NCBI RefSeq assembly: GCF_004762035.2
Contig: NZ_SIJK02000005.1
Location: forward strand, 139,507-175,416
Reading direction: 5' to 3'
DNA: 35,910 bases
Origin: Candidatus Chloroploca mongolica
GTDB lineage: Bacteria > Chloroflexota > Chloroflexia > Chloroflexales > Chloroflexaceae
Part shown: piece after piece, positions 2,643-29,949 of the stretch
Layout: the number at the start of each line of letters is the position of its first letter
How positions within the stretch are numbered: the first letter of the stretch is position 1
Made by a program: the position numbers and the translations under genes
The notes under the pieces: model-generated
Database searches by the model: none
What the model saw: only the letters and a program-made list of their open reading frames with translations
Told to the model about the DNA's origin: nothing

Positions 2643-2671
2643 TTGACAGAGCAAAGGTTCCATCCTATACT
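2643..2671 (+). promoter_or_regulatory. Sigma-70-type promoter of the SulP-ArsR operon
   Basis: A perfect -35 TTGACA (2643-2648) and a -10 TATACT (2666-2671) are separated by exactly 17 bases. The predicted start of transcription is near 2678, immediately beside the palindrome at 2679-2702. Confidence 0.85.
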
Positions 2672-2678
2672 CTTTCTT

Positions 2679-2702
2679 AAATATATGAATATTCATATAT
2701 TT
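2679..2702. promoter_or_regulatory. 24-bp perfect palindrome, probable ArsR operator
   Basis: The half-site ATATATGAAT is followed directly by its reverse complement, and the symmetry extends to 12+12 bases. The motif resembles known ArsR/SmtB operators (ATATGAA...TTCATAT). A looser outer symmetry pairs 2674-2681 with 2708-2715. It sits on the predicted +1 of the promoter at 2643-2671, so a bound repressor would block initiation. The ArsR gene closing the operon is the obvious candidate ligand, by inference. Confidence 0.85.
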
Positions 2703-2731
2703 GATTATTTAAGAAAGGAGCGGATGAATCT

Positions 2732-4477
2732 ATGCAGCGTCTTGCGCAGTTTCCGCTCGTTGAGCAGTTGCGTCACGAGTTTGCCGGGTACAACGGCGAT
2801 ACCTTGCGGCGTGATTTGTTGGCGGGCATTACGGTTGGGGCCGTCAGTTTGCCATTGGCCCTGGCCTTTGGGGTCGCGTCAGGCGCTGATGCCGCCGCAG
2901 GGTTGGTGACAGCGATCCTCGCTGGGATCATCATTGGGGGGTTGAGTGGGGCGAGTTTTCAGATTTCTGGCCCGACGGGGGCCATGTCGGCGGTGTTGAT
3001 CGTGGTAGCCCAACGCTATGGCTTAGGCGGGCTTTGGGTTACGGCATTGATGGCCGGGGTCTTCATTCTCTTGCTGGGGCTCTTTCGTCTTGGCCGCTAC
3101 ATTTCGTTCATTCCCTCACCAGTTATTGCGGGTTTTACCAGCGGCATTGCCATCATTATCGTGATCGGGCAACTCGACAATGTGCTCGGCGTGACGACGC
3201 CCCCCGCCGAGAATGCGTTTGCACGGTTGGTACACTATTTCACCCATCCCTTGATGCCCGATTGGCGTACGATCCTGGTGACGGCGCTGGTCATTGTGGT
3301 GATGATCATTATGCCACGCTTGACCCGGGTGATCCCTGGTTCGCTGGTCGGCATGGTGCTGGTGACGATCCTGGTGGCCGTGGTGGGCTGGGATATCCCG
3401 GTGATCGGGGCAATCCCGCAGACAATTTTGCTCGATGAGCGACTGACCTTTGGCGCGATCCCCTGGCTCGAACTGAACGATCTGCTTTTGCCTGCGGTTT
3501 CGATTGCCGCCCTCGGCGCGATCGAGAGCTTGCTCTGCGGTTCGGTGGGGGCGACGATGAGTGGACGACGTTTTGAGAGCAATCAAGAGTTGCTGGCGCA
3601 GGGCATTGGCAACCTGATCATTCCCTTTTTTGGTGGCGTGCCAGCCACGGCCGCCATTGCCCGGACGAGTGTGGCGATCAAGAGTGGTGGGGTCACGCGC
3701 ATGACGAGCATCGTGCATTCACTTGTGCTCTTGCTTAGTGTCTTTGTGCTGGCCCCCCTGATTAGCCGTGTGCCACTGGCTGCCCTTGCCGGGGTGTTGC
3801 TGGTTACGGCCTGGCGCATGAATGAATGGGAAAGCATCCACTTCTTTGTGCATAGTGGCCTGAAACATGCCGTTATTGGCTTTTTTGTGACCATGATCGC
3901 GACCGCCGCCCTCGATTTGACTCAGGCGATCATGATTGGGATCAGCCTGTCGGCCATTATTTACTTGCGGCAGTCGGCCATCAGTACCACCGTCACGAGC
4001 CAGCCGATTGATGCCGAGAAGATGCAGCAGCAGGGCTTCCCGATTACCGCCACCTGCCCAAGCATTCATGTCTATTATCTGACCGGCCCACTCTTTTTTG
4101 GGAGTGTCAATACGATTCTTGAAGCCTTCAAGCATGCGAACGAGTATTATAGTATCATCATCAGCATGCGCGGGGTTCCCATGATCGATGTCATGGGAAC
4201 CCAGGCGATCAGCCAGATTGTCGAAGAGCATCGCGCCCGTGGGGGCGAGATCTTCTTTACCGCCTTGCAGCCAGCGGTGATGGAGCTCTTTCAGCGTACC
4301 GGGCTTGCCGAGAAGATTGGCATGCGCTACATCTACTGGAGTTCTGCCGATGTAATTATTGAGTTGCACGAGCGTCGTATGGTGGCGGGGTGCCCCCATT
4401 GTCATGCCCACGGCGAGCGTTGCAGTGTCTTGCAGCAAGCCCAGGAACGCCTGGCGTTTGAGGCAAAGGTGACATAA
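2732..4477 (+). CDS. SulP family inorganic anion transporter with STAS domain
   Basis: This 581-residue membrane protein is a SLC26/SulP-type carrier for anions such as sulfate or bicarbonate. The N-terminal block LLAGITVGAVSLPLALAFGV and the following FQISGPTGAMSAV match the family signature, and about a dozen hydrophobic segments run to residue ~415. A STAS domain spans roughly residues 430-545; its usual phosphorylatable serine loop reads MRGVPMIDVMG. The tail is unusual: after the STAS domain the chain ends with C554, H556, C557, H558, H560 and C564 within eleven residues, a possible metal or redox site. An AGGAG lies 11 bases before the ATG. The stop overlaps the ArsR start. Sulfate versus bicarbonate cannot be decided from sequence alone. 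Confidence 0.93.
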   Translation: MQRLAQFPLVEQLRHEFAGYNGDTLRRDLLAGITVGAVSLPLALAFGVASGADAAAGLVTAILAGIIIGGLSGASFQISGPTGAMSAVLIVVAQRYGLGGLWVTALMAGVFILLLGLFRLGRYISFIPSPVIAGFTSGIAIIIVIGQLDNVLGVTTPPAENAFARLVHYFTHPLMPDWRTILVTALVIVVMIIMPRLTRVIPGSLVGMVLVTILVAVVGWDIPVIGAIPQTILLDERLTFGAIPWLELNDLLLPAVSIAALGAIESLLCGSVGATMSGRRFESNQELLAQGIGNLIIPFFGGVPATAAIARTSVAIKSGGVTRMTSIVHSLVLLLSVFVLAPLISRVPLAALAGVLLVTAWRMNEWESIHFFVHSGLKHAVIGFFVTMIATAALDLTQAIMIGISLSAIIYLRQSAISTTVTSQPIDAEKMQQQGFPITATCPSIHVYYLTGPLFFGSVNTILEAFKHANEYYSIIISMRGVPMIDVMGTQAISQIVEEHRARGGEIFFTALQPAVMELFQRTGLAEKIGMRYIYWSSADVIIELHERRMVAGCPHCHAHGERCSVLQQAQERLAFEAKVT

Positions 4478-4809
4478 TGTATCAGCCTCTTCATCAATTC
4501 AAAGCCGAGTTCTTCAAAGCGCTCGGCCATCCGTTACGCCTGGTGATCCTTGAGCAACTGGTCGCCGGGGAAAAGAGCGTGACCGACTTGCAGGCAGCGC
4601 TTGGCGTGGATCAGTCAAGTGTGTCGCAACAACTGGCGATCTTGCGTACGCGCAATATTGTTGAGCCACGCAAAGATGGTACCAGTGTCTTTTACCGCCT
4701 GCGTGACCCGTTGATTGCCGAGTTGCTAGACCTTGCCCGCAGCATCTTTAACAATCACCTGATTGATACCCAGGCGATGTTGCAGCAACTCGCCACGAGC
4801 GAGACCTGA
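4477..4809 (+). CDS. ArsR/SmtB-fold transcriptional repressor
   Basis: The 110-residue protein has the standard winged-helix layout: FKALGHPLRLVILEQL (helix 1-2), SVTDLQAALGVDQSSVSQQL (recognition helix-turn-helix) and a beta wing at RKDGTSVFYRL. It contains no cysteine at all, so the Cys-based metal or persulfide sensing of classical ArsR, CadC or BigR proteins is not possible. The His/Asp residues in the last helix (DPLIAELLDLARSIFNNH) could still form a helix-5 type site. The start codon overlaps the SulP stop (TAATG), so the two are translated together. It probably binds the palindrome at 2679-2702 and represses its own operon. Confidence 0.92.
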   Translation: MYQPLHQFKAEFFKALGHPLRLVILEQLVAGEKSVTDLQAALGVDQSSVSQQLAILRTRNIVEPRKDGTSVFYRLRDPLIAELLDLARSIFNNHLIDTQAMLQQLATSET

Positions 4810-4864
4810 ACGTCAGCCTCCGGCTAGGGCTTTGAAGGCCTGCCGTTTATGCTGATGGATCGCC

Positions 4865-4927
4865 GGCGAGCGGTACGGGCGCAGCGCGCTGCGCCGGGCG
4901 AGCGGTACGGGCGCAGCGCGCTGCGCC
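4865..4927. repeat. Tandem 31-bp GC-rich palindromic repeat between convergent genes
   Basis: A 31-base unit beginning GGCGAGCGGTACGGGC occurs at 4865-4895 and again at 4897-4927. Each copy holds the perfect palindrome GCGCAGCGCGCTGCGC. It lies in the short gap between the arsR stop and the stop of the minus-strand kinase-like gene, so it may act as a two-way terminator or transcript stabiliser, although no U-tract is present. Confidence 0.75.
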
Positions 4928-16991: not shown

Positions 16992-17081
<90 letters not shown>

Positions 17082-17091
17082 CAAAAACTTG

Positions 17092-17166
17092 GGGCGATTA
17101 GCTCAGTGGTAGAGCACCTCGCTTACACCGAGGGTGTCGGCGGTTCGACCCCGTCATCGCCCACCA
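17092..17166 (+). tRNA. tRNA-Val (anticodon TAC)
   Basis: The acceptor stem GGGCGAT/ATCGCCC, D arm GCTC...GAGC, and anticodon arm CCTCG-CTTACAC-CGAGG with TAC are complete. CCA is encoded at 17164-17166. Confidence 0.96.
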
Positions 17167-17214
17167 TCGGGTTTTCCGAAATCTTCCCGTCTGTTTGTCG
17201 GTAAACCAAAATCA

Positions 17215-17290
17215 GCCAAGGTAGCTCAGTTGGTAGAGCATCGCACTGAAAATGCGGGGGTCACCGGTTCAAGTCCGGTCCTTGGCACCA
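17215..17290 (+). tRNA. tRNA-Phe (anticodon GAA)
   Basis: The acceptor stem GCCAAGG/CCTTGGC is perfect, and the anticodon loop CTGAAAA shows GAA. The anticodon stem has one T-G pair at its outer end. CCA is encoded at 17288-17290. Confidence 0.96.
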
Positions 17291-29797: not shown

Positions 29798-29814
29798 GAG
29801 GCGCGGAGGTTTTG

Positions 29815-29949
29815 ATGCAAAGGCGCGAAGGCGCAGAGGTTTTTGACGCAAAGGCGCGAAGGCGCAGAGGTTTTTAGGTAACTTTGCGTCTTTGCGTCTT
29901 TGCGTCTTTGCGTCAATAGGTAACTTTGCGTCTTTGCGTCTTTGCGTCA
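29815..29949. repeat. Inverted set of tandem TTTGCGTC-type repeats
   Basis: On the left, two 30-base copies of GCAAAGGCGCGAAGGCGCAG end in AGGTTTT. On the right, AGGTAAC is followed by four TTTGCGTC octamers and then again by AGGTAAC and three octamers. The two halves are in opposite orientation, so they can pair. It lies between convergent genes and may act as a terminator. It is a low-complexity repeat, not coding. Confidence 0.85.

Follow-up and report, generated by a model that had tools for sequence, protein, structure and literature searches.

We analyzed a 35,910-nucleotide stretch of the Candidatus Chloroploca mongolica genome (contig NZ_SIJK02000005.1, positions 139,507 to 175,416), hereafter the window, focusing on a locus at 2643-4809 that holds a promoter, a 24-bp palindrome, a gene for a SulP-family transporter, and a gene for an ArsR-type repressor. 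The original prediction, made from the letters alone, described these parts as one self-contained switch, with a TTGACA-17-TATACT promoter, a perfect palindrome at the transcription start, a SulP/STAS transporter, and an ArsR gene overlapping the transporter's stop codon. When we re-read the sequence, every part lay where it had been placed and the layout matched base by base (Table 1). Transcription likely starts near 2678, judging from the position of the -10 box, and the overlap of stop and start codons likely couples translation of ArsR to that of SulP. For comparison, we used the 6.3-Mb host genome and two genomes of the same genus (congeners, loci L055 and L056), whose ArsR proteins are 94-95% identical to the one in the window.

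Table 1. Features of the locus and, in the last three rows, of the rest of the window (window coordinates; aa, amino acids; TM8, transmembrane helix 8)
Feature	Position	Strand	Detail
Sigma-70-like promoter, TTGACA-17-TATACT	2643-2671	+	-35 TTGACA 2643-2648, 17-nt spacer, -10 TATACT 2666-2671; 11/12 consensus bases
Putative extended AT-rich operator region	2672-2717	.	inverted-repeat arms 2672-2692 / 2697-2717, 81% complementary
Perfect 24-bp palindrome, AAATATATGAATATTCATATATTT	2679-2702	.	12/12 dyad pairs; core 2681-2700 is one motif register (14/20 consensus bases)
Second strong register, ATATTCATATATTTGATTAT	2689-2708	.	18/20 bases match consensus ATATTCAAATATTTGAATAT
SulP/SLC26 transporter with STAS domain	2732-4477	+	581 aa; nearest DauA by profile matches; E265 in TM8
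C-terminal Cys cluster of SulP, C-x2-C-x6-C	4391-4423	+	past the STAS domain
TAATG stop/start overlap	4475-4479	+	one base common to SulP stop and ArsR start
ArsR-type repressor, cysteine-free	4477-4809	+	110 aa; nearest solved structure Rv0081 (6jmi)
Tandem repeat just 3' of ArsR	4861-4927		32-bp GC-rich unit, 2.1 copies
Three consecutive tRNA genes	16992-17287	+
Tandem repeats	29799-29948		periods 31 and 8

Palindrome and operator registers

The palindrome is beyond chance, since no spacer-less palindrome with 12-bp arms arose when the 244-bp intergenic stretch was shuffled 3000 times by dinucleotides (the longest shuffled arm was 9), and it is the sole spacer-less palindrome of that size in the window. 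In a loose promoter scan, the -35/-10 pair by itself is within chance (2 found versus 1.4 expected), although 11 of its 12 bases match the consensus. Its perfection, on which the original prediction laid weight, is nevertheless not kept in the congeners, where 11 of 12 pairs (L055) and 10 of 12 (L056) remain. The congeners gave the impression that the palindrome was not conserved and that a CAAATAT-n4-ATATTTG (7-4-7) element was the operator, a candidate we dropped when a de novo search showed registers of one motif.

For that search, we took the best 80 of 270 confirmed ArsR relatives, drawn from named genomes, to which the window was added (81 loci, the first set), and used 80 upstream regions, leaving out L058, where SulP is cut by the contig end. 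AT-rich dyads stood directly past the -10 box in many of the Chloroflexota promoter regions that we read. Palindromic expectation-maximization on the 80 regions yielded the dyad ATATTCAAATATTTGAATAT from three of four seeds, with at least 10 bits in 68 of them, and reached a log-likelihood of 568, compared to 32-52 for refits on six shuffled sets, in which only 7-16 of 80 regions reached 10 bits. As a safeguard against circularity, a matrix trained on the 40 Bacillota regions was tested on the other 40, the window included: 33 of these beat all 60 of their own shuffles, five were equalled by one shuffle and two by two, while the window region beat 2000 of 2000. With held-out scores between 1.7 and 25.3 bits, some of the sites are weak, and the position of the motif within the relatives' upstream regions varies widely. 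In a further set of 37 ArsR loci, which overlaps the first in part (L234/L064, L237/L079), the motif beat all shuffles in 19 of the 36 that were scored, L217 having too little upstream DNA. The motif thus recurs with this ArsR type across phyla. The original prediction had staked its circuit on the palindrome being found upstream of other SulP-ArsR pairs, and in the form of this motif it is found there, in the 68 of 80 regions and also in the held-out phyla.

Within the window, four overlapping registers of the motif follow one another in 8-bp steps, and the Bacillota matrix scores them at 13.0 (start 2673), 12.9 (2681), 25.1 (2689), and 11.3 bits (2697); the next-best place in the whole 35.9 kb, outside these registers, has 2.0 bits. 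This matrix prefers register 2689-2708 in the window and in both congeners. We rejected that register as the single true one, since the joint matrix gives nearly equal scores in the window (20.0 bits for 2681-2700 and 21.7 for 2689-2708) and the opposite order in the congeners, where the palindrome register ranks first (21.4 and 22.7 bits). On these scores, the palindrome supplies one (2681-2700) of a pair of strong registers, the other being 2689-2708, which overlap within a longer putative operator; what is conserved is the 20-bp motif in overlapping registers rather than the perfect 24-bp palindrome. The exact ATATNNNAATATTNNNATAT occurs once in the genome, at this putative operator; with up to two mismatches it has four matches per strand, compared to three for the reversed pattern, which is about equally few.

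Association of the motif with the repressor gene and its partners

SulP orthologues are present in Chloroflexales genomes both with and without an ArsR orthologue, and we compared their loci, leaving out L166 (a SulP fragment without a promoter). L251, which carries no ArsR, was also among the rows removed before counting. With the Bacillota matrix, the best score of the whole locus was at least 3.7 bits in 15 of 15 SulP loci from ArsR-bearing genomes, the window included, and at most -1.1 bits in 14 of 14 from genomes without ArsR. For the stretch upstream of SulP alone, at least 10 bits were reached in 8 of 15 and 0 of 14 loci, respectively (Fisher p = 0.002). In genome G024, SulP and ArsR lie on separate draft contigs, each with a motif site (17.0 bits at SulP and 17.4 at ArsR with the joint matrix; 3.7 and 11.8 with the Bacillota matrix), an arrangement that, within the limits of draft contigs, suggests regulation in trans. 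As one would look for in an auto-regulated ArsR-transporter operon, the putative operator motif is conserved with the repressor gene, 12 of 80 regions excepted. The idea of an ArsR operator at the start site of a self-contained unit therefore stands: the dyad lies past the -10 box, the motif tracks ArsR, and the exact site has no other copy in the genome.

The pairing of the two genes is likewise conserved. A search for the ArsR in sixty relatives and the genome itself set sixteen matches apart at 65-100% identity, with the rest at 51% or less except for a fragment of 33 residues where a contig ends (79%). Of 15 orthologous ArsR loci, the window included, 13 had SulP no farther than 1.5 kb away, versus 0 of 21 paralogous loci; this count omits the sixteenth orthologous ArsR (G030:C1273), which has no SulP match there, and sets L006 aside as the window's own locus. 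Under a stricter count in the first set (within 900 bp and non-convergent), SulP was the partner at 62 of 81 loci, Hyf subunits at 8, and neither at 11. The SulP-linked loci come mostly from Chloroflexota and Bacillota; Acidobacteriota contribute a few, and a Thermaceae bin is also represented. Of the 118 loci in the two sets combined, 98 have a SulP or Hyf subunit as partner and 20 have neither nearby; ArsR comes first in 52, SulP first in 11, and the two are divergent in 10, and thus the SulP-ArsR order of the window is a minority arrangement.

Hyf-like membrane complexes are another kind of neighbor: in Acidobacteriota, some Chloroflexota, and bins labelled Rokubacteria, this ArsR type lies in front of them or alongside, at 8 of 81 loci in the first set and 17 of 37 in the further set. 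We considered one operator for all Hyf-linked relatives, as 8 of 8 in the first set reach at least 10 bits (12.8-16.6), and rejected it because, of the 17 Hyf-linked loci in the further set, only 9 scored above all of their shuffles; the motif is clearly absent in several of these, such as L224, L228, and L229. We also gave up the Hyf partner as an invariable hydrogenase. The HycE-like large subunits at L062 (4582-6159) and L224 (5779-7365), whose Hyf-type clusters neighbor an ArsR of this type, have no CxxC pair and are therefore probably no hydrogenases; the L242 subunit has two. L062 was dropped as a Hyf operon, its Hyf genes being convergent, and the stricter count leaves it out. On a tree of 114 ArsR sequences (L233 and four duplicate sequences left out), the SulP and Hyf labels need seven exchanges, a soft number because 110 columns leave many forks weak.

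Other partners were seen at single loci or in single groups. A Terriglobales relative has ArsR, a small MerR-like protein, and then DabA (L089, 1767-4733; DabA 212.5 bits), and a Terriglobia relative has ArsR, a small MerR-like protein, and then SulP (L094, 5992-10542), the MerR name being carried over from a similar protein at L132. At L219 (5409-8582), in the same phylum as the Terriglobales bin, an ArsR relative stands upstream of a P-type ATPase, with the operator motif absent. A Cys-rich protein of about 212 aa lies near ArsR in 13 Bacillota loci, mostly Paenibacillus (L096, L106, L112, L113, L114, L118, L121, L122, L124, L126, L128, L130, and L133), which may be plain synteny; the L122 copy has no Pfam match.

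Transporter, repressor, and readings of the circuit

The SulP open reading frame matches PF00916 (227.6 bits) and the STAS family PF01740 (61.5 bits), both over cut-off, which places it in SulP/SLC26 with STAS. Among NCBIfam profiles, DauA ranks first (383.4 bits), followed by sulP (287) and BicA (227.6), none over cut-off; the equivalog cut-off for DauA is 614 and the cut-off for BicA 880. By sequence, 6ki1, which we take to be BicA, leads the solved structures (2.4e-42). Identity is 33% to DauA over 504 aa and 34% to the BicA segment over 391 aa, and the acidic residue of TM8 is Glu here and in DauA, compared to Asp in BicA and in L254. L254 (G000:C74:5500-8500), one of four further SulP matches in this genome, shares 67% identity with the BicA segment of 6ki1 and is likely the organism's bicarbonate transporter; because of it, the ArsR-linked SulP is not the BicA-like copy, and we discarded that identity. 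On these comparisons, the ArsR-linked SulP is nearer to DauA than to BicA, and they do not warrant naming it a carrier of bicarbonate or of sulfate. Its C-x2-C-x6-C tail falls in a low-confidence part of the structure model. We weighed this tail as a partner of ArsR and rejected it: it is present in 46 of 64 SulP rows, yet also at 8 of 14 SulP loci without an ArsR gene. Two ArsR-linked SulPs of 877-878 aa (L063, 6447-9080; L065, 4206-6842) have four CBS domains past STAS in place of the Cys tail.

The repressor, one of nine ArsR family matches in the genome, belongs to the ArsR/SmtB family (PF01022, 40.7 bits, cut-off 22). Its predicted fold (predicted local distance difference test score 79.6) has helices at 4-15, 19-29, 35-42, 46-58, and 78-107 and strands at 62-67 and 70-75. 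Rv0081 (6jmi) is the best match among solved chains both by sequence (5.9e-22, residues 3-106) and by predicted fold (E 1.3e-08, 44% identity), and by this measure the window ArsR is of the Rv0081 type. NCBIfam HTH_metalloreg scores 88.2 bits, above its cut-off of 55, and BigR comes second with 68.4 bits, under its cut-off of 155. As the original prediction had observed, the protein has no Cys, and with it both the thiol (α3N/CxC) metal site and the α2 and α5 cysteines of the BigR/SqrR persulfide sensors are absent; this absence is, on the other hand, ordinary among relatives, since 50 of 72 SulP-linked and 22 of 25 Hyf-linked proteins are Cys-free (partner labels here assigned within 3.5 kb), the remainder have Cys at scattered positions, and no Cys is conserved among them. 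We take the α5 metal ligands of SmtB to be D104, H106, H117, and E120; mapped through alignment ranges, they correspond to D77, L79, I90, and N93, so that one of four is kept and the window ArsR lacks the D, H, H, E site. Sensing of a metal through an SmtB-type His/Asp site, as the original prediction had offered, finds no support here. With one of four ligands kept and no conserved Cys, we consider an inducer of the classical metal or persulfide type unlikely. H18, R21, R57, D77, and F91 are near-invariant in the relatives, the D77 position being Asp in 99% of SulP-linked rows, and N93 and H94 are found in 88% and 83% of SulP-linked rows versus 56% and 52% of Hyf-linked rows.

We favor, at a probability of roughly three in four, a dedicated, auto-regulated repressor-transporter operon that is released by an inducer. 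One promoter would drive a DauA-like SulP anion transporter together with a translationally coupled, dimeric, winged-helix ArsR of the Rv0081 type; the ArsR dimer would bind the AT-rich dyad at the start and directly past it (2681-2700, 2689-2708) and block initiation or escape at its own operon; and an inducer other than a thiol reagent or a metal bound to the classical α5 site would free the operator, whereupon the transporter would be made on demand and the extra repressor would reset the switch. Dimer binding, repression, auto-regulation, and induction are steps that we infer from the sequence. We would guess that the inducer is a small carboxylate (formate, C4-dicarboxylates) or bicarbonate, because the SulP is DauA-like and this ArsR type also precedes Hyf/formate-hydrogenlyase-like operons and, in one case, DabA; formate should not be taken too literally because the Hyf complexes at L062 (convergent) and L224 have no hydrogenase motifs. 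The switch that the original prediction described is thus real and conserved, and its parts were rightly named there, though with misplaced emphasis on the 24-bp perfection and the missing Cys; the label "anion-responsive" is a guess.

Several points weigh against a dedicated operon of this kind. The 12 upstream regions under 10 bits are all from Bacillota, 8 of them from Paenibacillus, and one (L127) has just 30 bases of upstream DNA. Seven of the 15 loci from ArsR genomes miss 10 bits upstream of SulP itself, four of them with the ArsR gene in front of SulP, and in the further set the 9 of 17 Hyf-linked loci are joined by just 10 of 19 others that beat all shuffles. Against the guessed inducer, DabA was found in just 1 of the 18 genomes searched, and one relative, at L219, stands before a P-type ATPase, with the motif absent. 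The loci share descent and come from draft genomes, and because of that the motif and pair counts, though strong, are not independent.

A wider version of the favored reading, in which a cross-phylum Rv0081-type regulon repeatedly swapped its targets (DauA-like SulP, Hyf/formate-hydrogenlyase-like complexes, once DabA) because the repressor senses a small carboxylate-type anion (formate, a C4-dicarboxylate, or bicarbonate) directly and not a metal or thiol, strikes us as doubtful, its odds being lowered by the Hyf-linked loci of the further set. Slightly below it we place two readings that we consider about equally unlikely. In one, SulP would import sulfate, and the signal read by the repressor would be sulfate or a lack of sulfur. 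Sulfate gave the family its name, and in part of one report sulP of Paenibacillus WLY78 goes up with other sulfate transporters under N2 fixation, the ArsR-linked copy not being established there (PMC4774088); however, the NCBIfam ranking puts DauA above sulP, a published tree seen in part, on which this SulP was not placed, has the DauA and BicA clades as bicarbonate/dicarboxylate carriers and not sulfate carriers (PMC5840216), and Hyf-type partners have no obvious sulfur link. In the other, bicarbonate or CO2 is the inducer of an inorganic-carbon switch, as membership of BicA in the SulP family, the 6ki1 match, and the ArsR-MerR-DabA order at L089 beside its near relative ArsR-MerR-SulP at L094 could suggest. 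Here, the BicA-like copy is L254 and not the ArsR-linked SulP, TM8 has Glu instead of Asp, and no carbonic anhydrase was recognized among the neighbor families listed, where no search was aimed at it. Inorganic carbon was dropped as the main signal given the single DabA-bearing genome and the absence of DabA among the genes listed for the 37 further loci.

A metal sensor of the SmtB/CzrA kind, with SulP as an accessory or metal-related gene, would accord with the HTH_metalloreg score, the Asp at D77, and the P-type ATPase at L219, but since D77 is the only α5 ligand kept, Cys is absent, most partners are SulP or Hyf subunits, and L219 has no motif, we regard it as quite improbable. It is harder still to credit that the palindrome acts as RNA, in a 5' leader hairpin governing stability or translation. 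The leader does fold into an 11-bp hairpin, and when folding begins at 2672 the pairing of the outer arm reaches the ribosome-binding site (z -2.82, matched by 2 of 200 shuffles); from the likely start at 2678, however, z falls to -1.01 and 31 of 200 shuffles do as well, the place of the motif varies among relatives, and the site is gone where the ArsR gene is gone. ArsR genes are common, as the nine family matches and the 20 loci with neither partner attest, but a chance neighborhood in which this ArsR regulates something else is scarcely believable when SulP is nearby at 62 of 81 loci versus none of the 21 paralogous ones, the motif tracks ArsR, and the exact site is single in the genome.

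Upstream of the promoter, at 2552-2624, lies a hairpin element in which AAACCTGACAGGTGGGCGCC recurs inverted after 53 bp. Allowing two mismatches at most, we found 36 matches to the arm pattern in the genome (16 forward, 20 reverse) and 0 to the reversed control, and several matches form pairs 53 bp apart; by this pattern, it is a dispersed family like the repetitive extragenic palindromes. By eye, the element is also upstream of SulP in Ca. Chloroploca sp. Khr17 and not in Ca. Chloroploca asiatica.

Relation to known systems

SmtB/CzrA operons combine a small repressor, a transporter, and an AT-rich dyad at the promoter. The window operon has the same fold and would form the same kind of circuit, whereas its ArsR has no thiol site and one of the four α5 ligands, and its target is predicted to be an anion transporter. 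The fold is likewise common to the persulfide sensors BigR, SqrR, and HlyU, whose two cysteines are absent in the window ArsR. Like DauA, an Escherichia coli SulP for C4-dicarboxylates, and BicA, which carries bicarbonate, the transporter combines SulP and STAS; unlike either, it adjoins an ArsR gene, and its C-terminal Cys cluster is absent in DauA. In the open-licence literature searched, we found no description of the SulP-ArsR pair or of this operator; passages of PMC5634878 and PMC2654142 had no bearing on the pair, and the candidate mentions in PMC12423496 and PMC10451225 concerned sulphur.

The nearest relative is Rv0081 of Mycobacterium tuberculosis. Passages of one report describe Rv0081 as a dimer that lacks a defined metal site and sits at a predicted formate-hydrogenlyase locus, and as a repressor of its own promoter, where it reportedly binds an inverted repeat (PMC6177252). 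Excerpts from an ArsR network place it in cluster 3, largely uncharacterized, not obviously metal-sensing, and with no assigned inducer, and describe large ArsR clusters without obvious metal sites (PMC10509353). The Rv0081 site lists, in the portion consulted, hold short words with no resemblance to the window motif (PMC4757040). The two repressors also differ in that the partner of the window ArsR is SulP, in that its D77, F91, N93, and H94 are A, L, R, and V in Rv0081, and in that descriptions of Rv0081 make it a broad hypoxia regulator, whereas the exact site of the window ArsR occurs just once in its genome. Altogether, the locus would be a compact, dedicated relative of Rv0081, with one promoter, one operator region, and one transporter. 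If true, carboxylate-anion sensing would supply the inducer for a large ArsR cluster to which none is assigned, and the locus may offer a handle both on the inducer of Rv0081's ArsR group and on the cargo of ArsR-controlled SulP.

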